Assembly (NCBI GenBank): GCA_014192425.1
Contig: BJHK01000027.1
Span: 1-40,117, forward strand
Length of the DNA stretch: 40,117 nucleotides
Origin: Planctomycetia bacterium
GTDB taxonomy: Bacteria > Planctomycetota > Planctomycetia > Pirellulales > UBA1268
Reading direction: 5' to 3'
Shown here: positions 33,993 to 40,117 of the stretch, in pieces
Layout: every line of letters begins with the position of its first letter
Position numbering within the stretch: the stretch's first letter is position 1
Made by a program: the position numbers and the translations under genes
The notes under the pieces: generated by a model
What the model was told of the DNA's origin: nothing
Seen by the model: only the letters and a program-made list of their open reading frames with translations
Databases searched by the model: none

Positions 33993-35795
33993 CTACGCGC
34001 CCCCCAGCTCCTCGCTCACGGCCAGCCAGCGTTCCTCGGCCGCCGCCAGATCCGCGGCCGCCTTCACGGCCGCCTCGTGGAGCCGGACCGCCGCCGCCGG
34101 GTCGGTCTCCGCGAGCAGGGCCGCGTCGAGGCGGCGCTTCTCGGCGTCGAGCGAGGCGACCTTCCTTTCGAGGCTGGAAAGTTCCTTGCGCAGCTCGCGG
34201 TCGTTCCGCGGCTTCGCCTCGCGCTGCCCCGGTCCCGCGCCGCGCGAGCCGCGGTCGGGGCTCCGTTCGGCGCCGCGGTCTGCGCCCCGGCCAGCCGCGA
34301 CGTCGACGGCGTCGGCCTCCCGGCCGAGGGCGGCGAGGTAGTCGGCATAGCCGCCGCCATGATGGCGGACGCGGCCGTCGCCGACCTCGATGACGTCGGT
34401 GGCCACCGCCTGCACGAACGACCGATCGTGGCTCGTGAAGATCACCGTGCCGGAATAGTCGACGAGCGCCGCGGCCAGGGCGTCGACGGTCTCGACGTCG
34501 AGATGGTTGCCCGGCTCGTCGAGGATCAGGACGTTTGCCGAGCCGAGGAGCAGGCCGGCCAGGCAGAGCCGGGCCCGCTCGCCGCCGGAGAGGACGGCGA
34601 TCCGCTTCTCCACCGCGCGGCCGCGAAACAGCATCGCCCCGGCGAGGTCGAGGATCCGCTGGCCCGGCGTGCCGATCGCCGCGCCGCGTTCGAGGTAGCC
34701 GAGCACCGTCTCATCGGCCGGCAGGCTCGTGTAGACGTGCTGGGCGTAGACCCCGAGCGTGCAGCCGTGCCCCCAGCGCACCTCCCCGGCGAGGGGCTCG
34801 AGCGAGGCGACGAGTGTCCGCAGGAAGGTCGTCTTGCCCTGGCCGTTGTCGCCGACGATCGCCGCCCGCGCGCCGTGCACCACCTCGACGTCGATCTCCG
34901 CGGCCACCACCCGGTCGCCGTGGCCGATCGACAGCCCGCGGCAGCGGACCGCCGGCCCGCGCCGCGGGGAGACGGCGGGGCAGCGGATCGCCGCCGTCGG
35001 CTCCGCTGAGGCGACCTCCTCCAGTTCCAGCCGCTCCAGCTGCCGGCTCTTCGACCGGGCCCGGGAGGCGGTCGAGGCCCGGGCCTTGTTGCGGGCGATG
35101 AAGTCCTCCAGTTGCCGGCGCCGGGCGAGCACCGTGGCGTTGGTCCGTTCGGCATGCAGCCGGCGTTCGCGGTCGTAAGTCAGAAACGCCTCGACCTTGC
35201 CGGGATAGACGGTGAGCTGGCCGGCCGACAGGTCGAGCGTCCGGTCGCAGGTGGCCATGAGAAACGCCCGGTCGTGGGACACGATCAGGCAGGCCTCGTC
35301 GAACGACCGCAGGAAATGCTCGAGGAGGATCTGCGTCCGCAGGTCGAGGAAGTTGGTCGGCTCGTCGAGGAGGAGGAGATTGGGCTCGTGGAGCAGGAGC
35401 GCCGCCAGCTTGACCCGCGTCTGCCAGCCGCCGGACAGCGCCGCCACGGGGCCGGCGAGCGCGGCACTCTTGATCTCGAACCGGCCCGCCACCTCGCCGC
35501 ACTTCCAGGCCGGCCGGCCGCTGTCGCGCTCGAGAAAGTCGATCACGGTCTCGCCGGGGAGAAACGGATCGTGCTGCCGGAGGTGGCCGAGCCGGAGCCG
35601 CGGATGGCGCACGATCTCGCCGGAATCGAGCTCCTCCTCGCCGAGGATCAGCCGCAGGAGCGTGCTTTTGCCCGCCCCGTTGCGGCCGATGAAGCCGATT
35701 TTGCCGTCGTCGGTGAGCGTGGCCGAGGCCCCGTCGAGGAGCACCTGATCGCCATACCGCTTGCAGGCGTTTTGGATCTCCACGAGGACGGCCAT
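33993..35795 (-). CDS. ABC-F family ATPase (Uup-like)
   Basis: 600 residues with two ABC domains and no membrane segments. First domain: Walker A GFIGRNGAGKSTLLRL, signature LSGGWQTRVKLA, Walker B LLLLDEPTNFLDL. The linker has LEDFIARNKARASTASRARS. Second domain: AIVGDNGQGKTTFLRTL, LSGGERARLCLAG, and LILDEPGNHLDVETVD in which Gly replaces the usual Thr. A charged C-terminal coiled coil (ELRKELSSLERKVASLDAEK) resembles Uup, which binds DNA or ribosomes. ABC-F proteins act on stalled ribosomes or give antibiotic tolerance. A -10-like TATATT (35828-35833, minus strand) precedes it. A perfect CCCCCGA/TCGGGGG hairpin lies at 35866-35882. Confidence 0.92.
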   Translation of the reverse strand: MAVLVEIQNACKRYGDQVLLDGASATLTDDGKIGFIGRNGAGKSTLLRLILGEEELDSGEIVRHPRLRLGHLRQHDPFLPGETVIDFLERDSGRPAWKCGEVAGRFEIKSAALAGPVAALSGGWQTRVKLAALLLHEPNLLLLDEPTNFLDLRTQILLEHFLRSFDEACLIVSHDRAFLMATCDRTLDLSAGQLTVYPGKVEAFLTYDRERRLHAERTNATVLARRRQLEDFIARNKARASTASRARSKSRQLERLELEEVASAEPTAAIRCPAVSPRRGPAVRCRGLSIGHGDRVVAAEIDVEVVHGARAAIVGDNGQGKTTFLRTLVASLEPLAGEVRWGHGCTLGVYAQHVYTSLPADETVLGYLERGAAIGTPGQRILDLAGAMLFRGRAVEKRIAVLSGGERARLCLAGLLLGSANVLILDEPGNHLDVETVDALAAALVDYSGTVIFTSHDRSFVQAVATDVIEVGDGRVRHHGGGYADYLAALGREADAVDVAAGRGADRGAERSPDRGSRGAGPGQREAKPRNDRELRKELSSLERKVASLDAEKRRLDAALLAETDPAAAVRLHEAAVKAAADLAAAEERWLAVSEELGGA

Positions 35796-35865
35796 GACCG
35801 GTTTCCGCAGGGGGCAAGGGGGGCACGAATATAGCGGACGGCAGCGGGAATAATCCGCCCCAAAA

Positions 35866-35882
35866 CCCCCGAACATCGGGGG
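35866..35882. terminator. Short hairpin upstream of the ABC-F gene
   Basis: CCCCCGA-ACA-TCGGGGG is a perfect 7-bp stem; on the minus strand it is followed by TTTT. It lies upstream of the putative ABC-F promoter and could insulate it or be a remnant terminator of a lost gene. Confidence 0.4.
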
Positions 35883-35947
35883 AGCGAGGCCCGTACTGAA
35901 CTCAGGTGCGCGGGCACGCGGTCCTCCGGCAGAAAGGGGGCAATGCG

Positions 35948-36082
35948 ATGGTCGCTGCAAACAAGGCCCTTCTTCGGCTGGTTCGGCGGCTGGCGATCCG
36001 CGACGAACTTCGCGCCATGCGGCACCGGGCCGGCCTCGTGCCGGCCCCGGTCGCCCGGCCCGCCCGGCGGCCCGCCGGCTGA
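35948..36082 (+). CDS. Possible small basic protein (44 aa), unrecognised
   Basis: ATG to TGA of 45 codons, translating MVAANKALLRLVRRLAIRDE then LRAMRHRAGLVPAPVARPAR and RPAG. An AAAGGGGG Shine-Dalgarno-like site ends 8 bases before the ATG. The first 28 residues would form a basic amphipathic helix; the rest is Pro/Arg-rich. No promoter is obvious. No family is recognised. It occupies the otherwise empty 460-base gap between the ABC-F and BlaI-type genes and might be a chance frame in G+C-rich DNA. Confidence 0.35.
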   Translation: MVAANKALLRLVRRLAIRDELRAMRHRAGLVPAPVARPARRPAG

Positions 36083-36176
36083 CGACGGCGGCGGCCTCTC
36101 TCTGCGCGGACCTCACCGCACCCCGGCCGCCAGGCGGCCGCCCCAACTCTCAGCCACGCCGTGCCAAGGATTGGGG

Positions 36177-36217
36177 TTGACGTACGGAAGTCGCCGTACT
36201 ACTATGCTTTCCGTACG
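36177..36217 (+). promoter_or_regulatory. Promoter/operator of the BlaI-M56 cassette
   Basis: TTGACG (36177-36182), 17-base spacer, TACTAT (36200-36205). The spacer is itself a dyad: GTACGG (36182-36187) and CCGTAC (36194-36199) are inverted. CGTACGGAA (36181-36189) is also inverted against TTCCGTACG (36209-36217). The sites overlap the promoter, the expected place for BlaI-type repression. Confidence 0.75.
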
Positions 36218-36258
36218 ACAAACCCTCAGCATCGTGTCCGCGGCCCCCGGAGTTCTCC

Positions 36259-36645
36259 ATGTCTGCCCCGTTTCAGCCGACCGATGCCGAGCTCGCGGTG
36301 CTCCGCGTGCTCTGGGAGCGTGAGCCCTGCACGGTCCGCGAAATCCACGACGCCTTCGCGGCCGACGGCCGGCAGGTGGCCTACACCACCGTCCTGAAGA
36401 CGCTTCAGATCATGACCGACAAAAAGCTCGTCCGCCGCGACGACCGGGCCCGGGCCCATCTCTATCGGGCGTCCACGCCGCGGCCGAAGGCCCAGAAGGC
36501 GCTCGTGGACGACCTCGTCGAGCGGGCCTTTGGTGGCGCGGCCGCGGAGCTCGTCCTCCATGCGCTCGCCGGCCGCAAGGCCACGCCCGCGGAGCTCGGC
36601 GAGATCCGCCGGCTGCTCGACCGCATGGAATCGCAATCCCCCTGA
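36259..36645 (+). CDS. BlaI/MecI/CopY-family transcriptional repressor
   Basis: 128 residues. The winged-helix N-terminus PTDAELAVLRVLWEREPCTV then REIHDAF and VAYTTVLKTLQIMTDKKLVR is the family signature, and DRARAHLYRASTPRPKAQKA is the dimerisation region's start. RAFGGAAAELVLHALAGRKA follows; the dimer helices contain the usual site of cleavage by the signalling protease. The repressor should bind the dyads at 36181-36217 and be inactivated when the membrane protease gene 78 bases downstream is activated. In planctomycetes this pair is common with unrelated sensor domains, so a beta-lactam role is not implied. Confidence 0.93.
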   Translation: MSAPFQPTDAELAVLRVLWEREPCTVREIHDAFAADGRQVAYTTVLKTLQIMTDKKLVRRDDRARAHLYRASTPRPKAQKALVDDLVERAFGGAAAELVLHALAGRKATPAELGEIRRLLDRMESQSP

Positions 36646-36723
36646 CCAGGTCGCATCCGGTTTCCCCCGTTCTCACCCGCGCCTGCCGCCCGCCTCCCAC
36701 CAACCAAGAAGGGCCTCGCCATC

Positions 36724-39648
36724 ATGCCCCCATTCGCCGCATGGCTCACCGATCGGCTCCCCGATCTCCTCGCCTCGCCGCTGGCCGCCCGGCTCGGCTG
36801 GACCTGCCTGCACTCGCTCTGGCAAGGCCTCGCGATCGCGGCCCTGCTCGCCATCGCCCTGCGACTCATCCCGCGCCGCTCGTCGGCCGCGACGAACGCC
36901 CGCTATCTGCTCGCCACCGCGGCCCTCGTCGCGCTGCCGGTTGCCGCCGCAGCCACGTTCGCGGTCGTCGACCCGGGCGTGAATCCTGCCGCCGCAGAGG
37001 CAACAAGCGACGCCGCCTCTGCGACTGCCTCGCGATCCGCCGGTGATGGTGCCGCAGACCCCGCATCCGCCGCACACGCCCCGACGATCGTCCTGCCGCC
37101 TCACCTCGCGACTGCCGCCGCGCGGCCCGCGGCACGCGAGTCGTTTGCCACCGTGACCACCGCCGCCTCCGCCGCGCTCGACCATCTCCGCCCCTGGCTG
37201 CCGGCGATCGCCGGCGTCTGGCTCGCCGGCGCCCTTCTCGCCGCCGGCCGCATGACGATCGGCTACTGGCTCACCCGCCGGATGGTGGCCCGCGGGGAGC
37301 CGCTCGCCGACGGGCGGTTTCAAGCGAGCGTGGAACGCTGGCGGCGGTCGATTGGCATCGACGCGGCCGTCCGCGTCCTCGCCTCCGCGGCGGTCGAGGC
37401 GCCCATCGTCGTCGGCTGGCTCAAGCCCGTGATCCTCTGGCCCGCCGCTGCCTTACTCGGCCTTCCCGCCCACGAGCTCGACGCGCTGGTCGTCCACGAA
37501 CTGGCCCACGTCCGCCGTCAGGACGCCCTCATGAACCTCCTCCAGGCCTGCATCGACGTCCTCTTCTTCCACCATCCCGCCGCCTGGTGGATCTCTGGCA
37601 CAGTCCGCGCCGAGCGGGAGCACTGCGCCGACGACCTGGCCGTCCGCGTCCTCGAAGCCGGCCACGCCGGCTCACGGCTCTCCTACGCCAAGGCGCTCCT
37701 TGCGCTCGAGGAACGCCGCCAGGCCCACGCCCTGGCACTGGCCGCCAACGGCGGCAGCCTGCTCGACCGCATCCGCCGGCTGGCCGGCGTCGAGGAGCAG
37801 CCCGCCTCCCTCGTCCGCCCGCTGGCCGCGGCGGCGATGGCGAGCCTGCTTCTGGCCGTGCTCATCACGGCAGCCGCACCGATTCGCGAAGCCCGGGCCG
37901 ACGAGTTGCCGAAGGACACGAACCAGATCGAGAGCCTCACGGTCGAGCAGGCGAAGAAGCTCGTGGAGGAGTTTCCGGGGGTGACGGTGGAGTTCCCGAC
38001 GAAGGGTTTACCCTACAAGCTCGAAAAATGTTTGCCGTTGAACGGCATCACAAAGCTCACGCCAGACGTGGCGCAGGCGTTGGCCGAATACAACCAACCC
38101 CATTACGTCATGAAGACGCTGTTCCTCAACGGTCTCACCTCGCTTGAAGCTCCTGCCGCCAAGGCACTTGCAGGGTTCACGGGCCACTTGCTGTCTCTCG
38201 ACGGTCTGGCCAGGCTCGACGCTGCTACCGCCAGAGCGCTCGCCGATTTGAAAGGCTGGCAGCTATCCCTCTCCGGCCTCGCCACTTTGGACGTTGATGC
38301 CACCAAGGCGATCGCGAAGTTCAAGGGCCACCGGCTGGACCTCAATGGCCTGACCGCACTCGACGCTGCCACTGCCCAAGCGATCAAGGGGTTTAAGGGC
38401 TCCCTGAACCTCAACGGCCTGACCACGCTCGACGCTGCCACTGCCCAGGCGCTCGCAGAGTTCGAGAGCCAAGGGCTAGGCCTCTCTGGCCTGCCCGCGC
38501 TGGACGCTGATGCCGCCAAGGCGGTCGCGAAGTTCAAGGGCCAAGGGCTGTATCTCGCCGGCCTGACGACACTCGATGCCGACACGGCCAGGGCGCTCGC
38601 GGAGTTCAAAGGCAACCGGCTGGGTCTTTCGGGTCTGACCACGCTCAACGCCGACGCTGCCAAAGCGCTCGCAGCGTTCAACGGCTACCAACTTGACCTC
38701 CACGGCCTCGCCACGCTCGACGTCGCCACCGCGAAGGCGCTTACGGAGTTCAAGGGCCGAGATCTGTCCCTCTCCGGCCTGACCACGCTCGATACCGACA
38801 CGGCCAAGGCACTCGCGGCGTTCAAGGGCGAATTGGAACTTGGTGGCCTGGTCACGCTCGACGCTGCCACAGCCACGGCGATTGGAGCGTTCAAAGCCAC
38901 GCGTCTGCAACTCTCCGACCTGACCTCGCTCGATGCCGGCACGGCCAAGGCGCTCGCGGAGTTCACCGGCAAATTGACACTCGGCGACCTGGTCACGCTC
39001 GACGTAGCCACAGCCACGGCGATTGGAGCGTTCAAAGCCAAACACCTGCAACTCTCCGGCCTGACCACGCTCGACGCCGCCACCGCGAAGGCACTCGTGG
39101 AGTACAAGGGCCGTTTACATCTCGGCGGACTGGTCGTGCTCGACGCTGCCACAGCCCAGGTGCTCGCGGTGTCCGATGCATGGGATGGTCTACTTCAGCA
39201 ACTGACCACGCTCGAACCCGCTACCGCCCGGGCGCTCGCAGATTTCAAGGGCCAAGGGCTGTATCTCGCCGGCCTGACGACACTCGATGCCGACACGGCC
39301 AGGGCGCTCGCGGAGTTCAAAGGCAACCGGCTGGGTCTTTCGGGTCTGACCGCGCTCGACGCTGCTACCGCCCGGGGGCTCGCGGGGTTCAAGGGCACCA
39401 GGCTGAACCTCTCCGGCCTGACATCGCTCGAAGCCGATGCCGCCCGGTCGCTGGCAGGATTCAAGAGCGAATTGGACCTGGGTGGCCTGGTCGCGCTCGA
39501 CGCCGACACCGCCCAGGCGCTCGCAGAGTTCGACGGAGTCGCGCTGCAACTCAACAAACTGATCAAGGTCGACGCAGAGAGCGAGAAGGTGTTGAAAGCG
39601 AACCGGAAAATCGAGTTTGTATCCATTTCTGTAAGCCCGCTCGGGTAG
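36724..39648 (+). CDS. M56 (BlaR1-type) metalloprotease fused to LRR-like tandem repeats
   Basis: 974 residues. N-terminal membrane helices (about 33-47, 58-74 and 160-175) surround the gluzincin active site HELAHVRRQD (His258, Glu259, His262) with the third ligand in EREHCADDLAV. A fourth membrane helix (about 371-390) leads outside the cell membrane. From about residue 465 to 955 there are about 21 copies of a 23-24 residue unit of the form LxLxGLTTLDA(A/D)TA then KALAEFKG, resembling the planctomycete/verrucomicrobial LRR-like repeats. They replace the penicillin-binding sensor of BlaR1. The ligand is unknown. Signal-induced cleavage of the upstream BlaI-type repressor is expected from the family. 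Confidence 0.9.
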   Translation: MPPFAAWLTDRLPDLLASPLAARLGWTCLHSLWQGLAIAALLAIALRLIPRRSSAATNARYLLATAALVALPVAAAATFAVVDPGVNPAAAEATSDAASATASRSAGDGAADPASAAHAPTIVLPPHLATAAARPAARESFATVTTAASAALDHLRPWLPAIAGVWLAGALLAAGRMTIGYWLTRRMVARGEPLADGRFQASVERWRRSIGIDAAVRVLASAAVEAPIVVGWLKPVILWPAAALLGLPAHELDALVVHELAHVRRQDALMNLLQACIDVLFFHHPAAWWISGTVRAEREHCADDLAVRVLEAGHAGSRLSYAKALLALEERRQAHALALAANGGSLLDRIRRLAGVEEQPASLVRPLAAAAMASLLLAVLITAAAPIREARADELPKDTNQIESLTVEQAKKLVEEFPGVTVEFPTKGLPYKLEKCLPLNGITKLTPDVAQALAEYNQPHYVMKTLFLNGLTSLEAPAAKALAGFTGHLLSLDGLARLDAATARALADLKGWQLSLSGLATLDVDATKAIAKFKGHRLDLNGLTALDAATAQAIKGFKGSLNLNGLTTLDAATAQALAEFESQGLGLSGLPALDADAAKAVAKFKGQGLYLAGLTTLDADTARALAEFKGNRLGLSGLTTLNADAAKALAAFNGYQLDLHGLATLDVATAKALTEFKGRDLSLSGLTTLDTDTAKALAAFKGELELGGLVTLDAATATAIGAFKATRLQLSDLTSLDAGTAKALAEFTGKLTLGDLVTLDVATATAIGAFKAKHLQLSGLTTLDAATAKALVEYKGRLHLGGLVVLDAATAQVLAVSDAWDGLLQQLTTLEPATARALADFKGQGLYLAGLTTLDADTARALAEFKGNRLGLSGLTALDAATARGLAGFKGTRLNLSGLTSLEADAARSLAGFKSELDLGGLVALDADTAQALAEFDGVALQLNKLIKVDAESEKVLKANRKIEFVSISVSPLG
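38533..38640 (+). repeat. 108-bp exact internal direct repeat, copy 1
   Basis: Identical to 39244-39351, 711 bases (237 codons) downstream in the same frame. It encodes one and a half repeat units (GLYLAGLTTLDADTARALAE and FKGNRLGLSGLT). Confidence 0.95.
39244..39351 (+). repeat. 108-bp exact internal direct repeat, copy 2
   Basis: Second copy of the 38533-38640 segment. Both flanks differ within a few bases, showing a sharply bounded recent duplication or gene conversion. Confidence 0.95.
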
Positions 39649-39664
39649 CCCGATGAGCTCCTGA

Positions 39665-39886
39665 CCGTCGCAATCGCTGAGATTCTCGACACGTGAAAGG
39701 CCCGGCTCTTGCTCCCGGGGCTTCAAACTCTCTCCCAAGACCCTCTCCGCCCTGATCGAGAAGGAAGACGTCGACATCCCCTTGATCGAAACGCTGGAAC
39801 TGATCCCCGAGCCCGACGGCAGCCCGACCGACGACTTCGTGATCCCCGAGGGTTTTCAAGAGCGGCAGCAACGGCAACGCCAGTAG
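39665..39886 (+). pseudogene. Orphan C-terminal coding fragment from an M56-type paralogue (inferred)
   Basis: A frame is open from 39665 to the TAG at 39884-39886 with no ATG, GTG or TTG start. Its second half reads like true protein: FKLSPKTLSALIEKEDVDIP, then LIETLELIPEPDGSPTDDFV and IPEGFQERQQRQRQ. It starts 16 bases after the stop of the M56-LRR gene and ends 75 bases before the next M56 gene. The simplest reading is the 3' end of a neighbouring or ancestral gene of the array, left behind by a deletion or recombination. The parent is unproved. Confidence 0.55.
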
Positions 39887-39961
39887 GCAATCCCTCCGGC
39901 GCAACCCGGATTCCCGTCGATCCATAAGCACGCACAACCCACAGAAAAAGGCCTCGCCATC

Positions 39962-40117
39962 ATGCCCGCGCTCGCCGCATGTCTCACCGATCGGCTCCCC
40001 GACCTCCTCGCCTCGCCGCTGGCCGCCCGGCTCGGCTGGACCTGCCTGCACTCGCTCTGGCAAGGCCTCGCGATCGCGGCCTTGCTCGCCATCGCCCTGC
40101 GACTCGTCCCGCGCCGC
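39962..40117 (+). CDS. Second M56 (BlaR1-type) metalloprotease, 5' part only
   Basis: The first 52 codons to the window edge: MPALAACLTDRLPDLLASPL and so on. 48 of 52 residues match the start of the gene at 36724 (changes at positions 3, 4, 7 and 49), and the DNA is almost identical from about 36743 onward. The ribosome-binding region (GGCCTCGCCATC before the ATG) is shared too. So the M56 gene is tandemly duplicated. Whether it also has LRR-like repeats cannot be seen. Confidence 0.9.
   Translation, partial: MPALAACLTDRLPDLLASPLAARLGWTCLHSLWQGLAIAALLAIALRLVPRR

Follow-up and report, generated by a model that had tools for sequence, protein, structure and literature searches.

A BlaI-type repressor gene and tandem M56 protease genes with LRR-like sensor parts in a planctomycete genome

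M56 receptors of the BlaR1 type are familiar mainly as sensors of antibiotics. To our knowledge, planctomycetes harbour many BlaI-M56 pairs that carry other C-terminal domains and have no known ligand. One such pair lies at the right end of a 40,117-nucleotide stretch from a Planctomycetia bacterium (the window), which is the entire contig C27 of draft genome G000 (3.98 Mb in 70 contigs, 95.9 % complete). Its protease is followed by a long array of short repeats, and a second copy of the receptor gene begins directly downstream. The question is what kind of receptor system this is, and what an array of such sensors might serve for.

The repressor and receptor genes of the window

The features of the locus are collected in Table 1. 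The original prediction, made from the window alone, described a dyad-bearing promoter in front of a BlaI-type gene, and both were recovered. The encoded repressor scores above the gathering cut-off of PF03965. The arms of the dyad (36181-36189 and 36209-36217, 9 bp each) are perfect and span both elements of a sigma-70-like promoter; an arm of 9 bp was reached by 1 % of shuffles of the same 129 bases. In a by-eye alignment, the Asn-Phe bond that is cleaved in S. aureus BlaI is absent from the window BlaI. The neighbouring gene on the minus strand (window 33993-36146) resembles, as judged by eye, an ABC-F type ATPase with two ATP-binding modules.

Table 1 Features of the locus at the right end of the window
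Feature	Position	Strand	Remarks
Promoter TTGACG-17 nt-TACTAT with overlapping 9-bp inverted repeat CGTACGGAA/TTCCGTACG	36177..36217	+	putative BlaI operator
BlaI/MecI/CopY-type repressor gene	36259..36645	+	128 aa; PF03965 91.2 bits, cut-off 22.6
M56-LRR receptor-like protein W1	36724..39648	+	974 aa
W1, membrane and M56 protease part	36724..37902	+	four predicted TM segments; HELAH and EREHCADD; A-R-A/DE end
W1, LRR array	38014..39621	+	D-type units, 23-24 aa period; predicted extracytoplasmic solenoid
Decayed remnant of the conserved C-terminal tail	39649..39885	+	in-frame stop, then frameshift to KLSPKTLSALIEKEDVDIPLIETLELIPEPDGSPTDDFVIPEGFQ
Start of the next M56-LRR gene	39962..40117	+	cut by contig end; 92 % identity over 52 aa

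It had been proposed to scan the genome for the dyad in order to find the regulon. At up to 3 mismatches the 22-nt operator core has two sites in the genome, each located before one of two near-identical BlaI genes. The arms of the second copy read ACGGAG/CTCCGT versus ACGGAA/TTCCGT in the window, a single compensated change that keeps the dyad. The 33-nt dyad, searched at 1 mismatch, gave one extra site, on contig C14, which lies within a reading frame. On these grounds a wider BlaI regulon was rejected. As far as these patterns reach (22-nt core to 3 mismatches and 33-nt dyad to 1 mismatch), the regulon found so far appears to consist of the receptor operons themselves, together with the BlaI gene controlling them.

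The gene downstream of BlaI encodes the receptor-like protein W1, for which an M56 protease with an intact HELAH motif and about 21 repeats of 23-24 residues had been foreseen. Indeed, W1 belongs to the M56 family (PF05569, 99.4 bits versus a gathering cut-off of 31), both zinc motifs are intact, and 20 repeat units were counted with a strict pattern; TRF reported 14.3 copies of 72 nt and 8 copies of 141 nt. The repeats were said to stand in place of a penicillin-binding sensor, and profile searches with Pfam and NCBIfam detected no transpeptidase or penicillin-binding domain in W1. The NCBIfam BlaR1 model NF000326 matches residues 162-422 only, with 74.8 bits versus a cut-off of 400. Since the penicillin-binding sensor was looked for and is absent, W1 is no member of the BlaR1/MecR1 beta-lactam sensors. 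W1 differs from its paralogues in its decayed C-terminal tail: the stop codon at 39646-39648 is followed by a remnant, recognisable by comparison with the intact tails of the paralogues, which contains a second stop and a frameshift. The near-identical M56 start reported behind it was found as described (Table 1).

BlaR1 of S. aureus has an N-out/C-out topology with the zinc domain open to the cytosol and the sensor outside; it cleaves BlaI directly, and signal peptidase releases its sensor as well (PMC9834060). The four hydrophobic segments of W1 match BlaR1 in their order, judged from charges and segments. Furthermore, standalone LRR proteins of the same genome start with a signal peptide whose end coincides with ADELPxDTNxIxSLT, the very sequence that follows TM4 in the fusions. 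Because the signal peptides of these relatives end at the fusion junction, and because BlaR1 is N-out/C-out, the W1 repeats are predicted, on good indirect evidence, to lie outside the membrane and not in the cytoplasm, in agreement with the original prediction. The A-R-A/DE sequence after TM4 could be a signal peptidase site.

Modelling of the repeats as a solenoid had also been proposed. In AlphaFold (AF2) models of W1 and of its paralogue C35_2 the repeat region has a pLDDT of ~90, and in each of the 20 scored W1 units positions 0-2 form a strand and positions 11-17 a helix. The closest solved fold is the GALA-LRR of RipG4 (9j7j; Z 24.7, rmsd 4.5, 342 residues), with further matches to FBXL2, ribonuclease inhibitor and TLR ectodomains. 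With units of 23-24 residues and a strand around the LxL core, the repeats are confidently predicted to form an LRR solenoid. These matches indicate fold class and not ancestry, as solenoids are generally alike. No Pfam LRR model matched at E values up to 1 for W1 or 0.1 for the paralogues, which is compatible with a divergent LRR, and the Pfam, NCBIfam and PDB sequence libraries yielded no match to the repeats beyond chance. The protease half of a paralogue could be superposed on BlaR1 (8exs; residues 26-362, Z 15.1, rmsd 5.3, 236 residues), this half of the models being of low to medium confidence because the alignment was shallow.

Receptor genes in the genome and in related bacteria

Tandem duplication of the receptor gene had been deduced from the second M56 start, with the advice to extend to the right and count copies. 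A PF05569 search of the genome gave eight M56 domains, distributed over C27 (one), contig C35 (four) and contig C42 (three). When partial genes at contig ends are counted (the gene at 39962 in the window and the C-terminal half of an M56 domain at the start of C35), these three contigs harbour at least 10 M56-LRR genes, which vary mainly in their repeats. Contig C18 breaks off within a gene that has matching repeats and a matching tail, and possibly represents a further end of the array. All of C27, C35 and C42 end inside array genes, which leaves the copy number and the order of the units uncertain. The genome contains three BlaI genes, two of which are near-identical (C27; C35:10847-11233), while the third (C35:3976-4443) is different and is located upstream of a divergent M56-LRR gene. 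Consecutive M56-LRR genes on C35 and C42 are separated by gaps of ~30-85 bp, and a polycistronic transcript is therefore likely. Between the BlaI-M56-LRR groups of C35 (L009:7034-10633) lie genes that resemble, by eye, DUF1549/DUF1553-type and DUF1501-type genes. A like order is found in the related genome G016 (L076): BlaI, M56-LRR, DUF1549/DUF1553-type and DUF1501-type genes, followed by a standalone LRR gene.

The protease part of the array proteins is nearly constant. Six other main-type M56 domains share 94-96 % identity with that of the window, and among the seven near-identical domains pS is ~0.09 in every pair and pN/pS is 0.34, with HELAH and EREHCADD intact in all; these domains are under purifying selection. 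A C-terminal tail, PDSVAIAKALATRKGPLSLPNLKK...IPEPDGSPTEDFVIPEGF, is common to the array proteins. The region between M56 and tail varies in length, unit type and sequence, giving proteins of 804 to 1243 aa. It was also asked whether fusions and standalone LRR genes had recently swapped sensor cassettes; blastn at >=92 % identity gave 48-nt blocks only, so that no such exchange is visible and the idea was rejected.

Co-occurrence with BlaI in relatives, on which the original prediction depended, is strong. Outside G000, 63 of 66 M56 matches are accompanied by BlaI, and one of the three without BlaI on the stretch seen lies at a contig end. Across 18 genomes all 66 counted BlaI genes (one weak partial match was left out) are located directly upstream of a same-strand M56 gene; several M56 genes per BlaI are clear in G000 only. 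In the search of relatives for BlaI-adjacent M56 proteins with these repeats, M56-LRR fusions were seen in 3 of 72 family genomes (G000, G016 and G030), and none of the others has an M56 close to these. Among 296 genomes of the order, searched at E 1e-12, the LRR family itself, which consists mainly of standalone secreted proteins, is present in 61 of the 66 that belong to this family, in 14 that belong to one other family (f15), and nowhere else. Those relatives of the M56 domain that carry a name come from uncultured bacteria, such as Planctomycetaceae bacterium UBA4655. A literature search on M56 or BlaR1 with LRR, planctomycetes or Pirellulales gave nothing relevant, which, the coverage being partial, is a weak sign of novelty.

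Several related genes were recorded alongside. The BlaI-adjacent M56-LRR gene of G016 (L076:3350-5714) has a frame that is apparently broken within the repeats, representing a pseudogene, a phase-variable frame or an assembly error. Like LRR repeats are fused to the planctomycete domains PSCyt1, PSD4, PSCyt3 and PSD2 in another protein (L074:2044-5907), and the LRR module is therefore common to different kinds of proteins. A short LRR protein (L072:5057-5917) with a signal peptide, a C-terminal hydrophobic helix and a basic tail looks like a membrane-anchored version without protease. Further BlaI-adjacent M56 proteins of planctomycetes (L084:3439-6846 and L085:2952-5942) have different C-terminal domains, among them WD40-like repeats and MacB-like and carboxypeptidase-regulatory-like domains.

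Selection on the exposed face of the repeat units

The original prediction compared the tandem sensors with a variable surface-recognition repertoire. In the analysis of DIVERSIFYING selection two unit types were distinguished, S (LxLxGLTTLSDEAAKALAQHKG) and D (LxLxGLTTLDAATAKALAEFKG). The S-type set comprised 67 units, from the M56 fusions and from two partial genes located where C42 and C18 end. Pooled pS of this set is 0.094, versus 0.536 expected when the same residues are drawn with local codon usage. The low pS is therefore not due to codon bias, and reflects a recent common origin or homogenisation. Positions 0, 2 and 4 were used for pN/pS, as LRR geometry marks them as strand-exposed; a Fisher test on distinct codon types was set aside, as the column groups differ in codon degeneracy and its six columns were chosen post hoc. 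At the exposed positions pN is 0.545 and pN/pS 4.7 (bootstrap 3.8-5.8, a rough guide since the units are related), versus 0.15 in the hydrophobic core and 0.91 at the remaining positions, and the scaffold codons are nearly fixed. The single array C42_d shows the same picture, with 5.4 at positions 0, 2 and 4, 0 in the core and 0.82 elsewhere. These data point to diversifying selection on the exposed positions of the S-type arrays.

Changes at positions 2 and 4 are almost confined to the first two codon bases. The position 0 codon, which precedes the first leucine (for example in L010:4724-8455), has a pN of 0.70 and a pS of 0.61 and is nearly randomised in all three bases next to almost fixed neighbours. 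Repeated turnover of this codon may account for its high pS; selection alone is no obvious explanation for the silent part of the variation.

The selection signal comes from the young arrays. Units that are alike save for hypervariable sites were demonstrated for the S-type arrays only. The D-type arrays (W1, C35_3 and two type-1 copies) are saturated, with pS ~0.5, and carry no readable sign of recent selection; the W1 array is thus of the older type and itself lacks a recent diversification signal. Arrays of other genomes have pN/pS values of 0.55-2.3 at positions 2 and 4, and so far the strong nonsynonymous excess is special to the S-type arrays of G000. The notion of a variable repertoire accordingly finds its footing in the S-type paralogues, but not in the window's own array.

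A proposed mechanism, its alternatives and known systems

On balance it seems probable that the locus encodes one-step signalling of the BlaI/BlaR1 type, with extracytoplasmic LRR solenoids in place of the penicillin sensor and with tandem amplification of the receptor gene. A receptor of this kind would span the membrane with four TM helices, its M56 zinc protease exposed to the cytoplasm and its LRR sensor to the exterior. If it worked as BlaR1 does, binding of a ligand (probably a protein or surface glycan) to any one LRR would activate its protease; this would cleave BlaI and thereby open the receptor operon's promoter. Many sensors combined with a near-constant protease would amount to OR logic, many receptors reporting to one kind of repressor. 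Sensor diversity would arise from gene duplication, from gain and loss of repeat units and from diversifying selection on the exposed strand face. A BlaR1-like working of the receptors is the best supported of these functional readings, and the steps from ligand to output likewise follow BlaR1 by analogy. It is suggested more tentatively, with somewhat less than even confidence, that the array forms a genome-encoded, fast-diversifying repertoire of LRR surface receptors which, through regulated proteolysis, would inform a single kind of repressor that phage, neighbours or other surfaces have been recognised.

Other explanations were weighed against these data. The proteins might be receptors without an outside target, whose LRR face would recognise secreted LRR proteins or envelope parts of the cell itself, as a housekeeping or envelope-stress sensor with units that co-evolve with their partners. 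Secreted standalone LRR proteins that share the N-terminal junction and the C-terminal tail are indeed numerous in this genome and its family; however, the silent sites of standalone S-type units are saturated, which places them outside the recent expansion of the fusion arrays, and the selection signal is strongest in the fusions, so that this kind of sensing is rated as unlikely. Less likely still, the LRR part would be mainly an adhesin or envelope structure fused to M56 by chance, its copies reflecting gene dosage or neutral amplification by recombination without any repertoire. Such a history would suit an LRR family that is mainly standalone, the ease with which tandem repeats are amplified, and the decayed tail of W1, which suggests degradation of some copies. 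It would not yield the contrast between exposed positions and core, and the M56 domains have remained under purifying selection with intact motifs.

Two further possibilities are given very little weight. Variation of the exposed codons by targeted mutagenesis (retroelement-like or at a recombination hot spot) instead of selection would fit the high silent variation and randomised look of position 0, but hardly the restriction of changes at positions 2 and 4 to the first two codon bases. A diversity-generating retroelement was specifically rejected: no match to a reverse transcriptase (PF00078) was found in the 95.9 % complete genome, there is no adenine bias, and positions 7 and 8, whose codons start with adenine, do not vary. 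Equally improbable is that the tandem array is partly an artefact of assembling similar repeats in a draft genome. All three contigs ending inside array genes might raise that suspicion; yet the copies have distinct silent differences, arrays and junctions, a single unit (69-72 bp) fits within a read of common length, and two different BlaI flanks are present.

The preferred reading, BlaI/BlaR1-type signalling with LRR sensors, would if confirmed provide a bacterial case of the design of constant signalling and variable recognition that is known from immune receptors. Its simple readout, one BlaI and one promoter, would make ligand discovery in a laboratory host practical. Should the repertoire reading also be true, the logic of the system would be comparable to that of animal and plant innate immune receptors.

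Compared with BlaR1/MecR1 and BlaI/MecI of Staphylococcus and Bacillus licheniformis, the system shares a BlaI-type repressor gene adjoining an M56 protease gene, the predicted topology, the HExxH motif, the fold match to 8exs and a dyad over the promoter. It differs in its predicted LRR solenoid sensor, in having several tandem receptors per repressor, in a regulon in which no resistance gene was found, and in a score far below the NCBIfam BlaR1 cut-off. The other C-terminal domains seen in BlaI-adjacent planctomycete M56 proteins suggest wide swapping of sensors. RipG4, the closest solved fold, likewise has a strand and a helix per unit of ~24 residues, but it is an effector of another phylum, and the present repeats match no Pfam LRR model. 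WD40 repeats of the fungal NLRs HET-D/HET-E combine high internal conservation with few hypervariable exposed sites under diversifying selection (PMC12222747). The S-type arrays resemble them in having alike units with hypervariable exposed positions under apparent diversifying selection in a putative recognition domain, while the present proteins are bacterial and predicted to be extracytoplasmic, with LRR instead of WD40 repeats and a metalloprotease instead of an NTPase. TLRs, plant NLRs and lamprey VLRs likewise have an LRR solenoid, and strand-face positions are most variable here, as they reportedly are in highly variable plant NLRs; only the fold class is shared, and signalling here would run via repressor proteolysis. 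LRR receptors usually touch their ligands at the positions that change fastest in the young S-type arrays. The system is a variant of the BlaI/BlaR1 kind: repressor and protease are as known, and what is new is the sensor fold, the tandem multiplication and the diversified predicted binding face in the young arrays.
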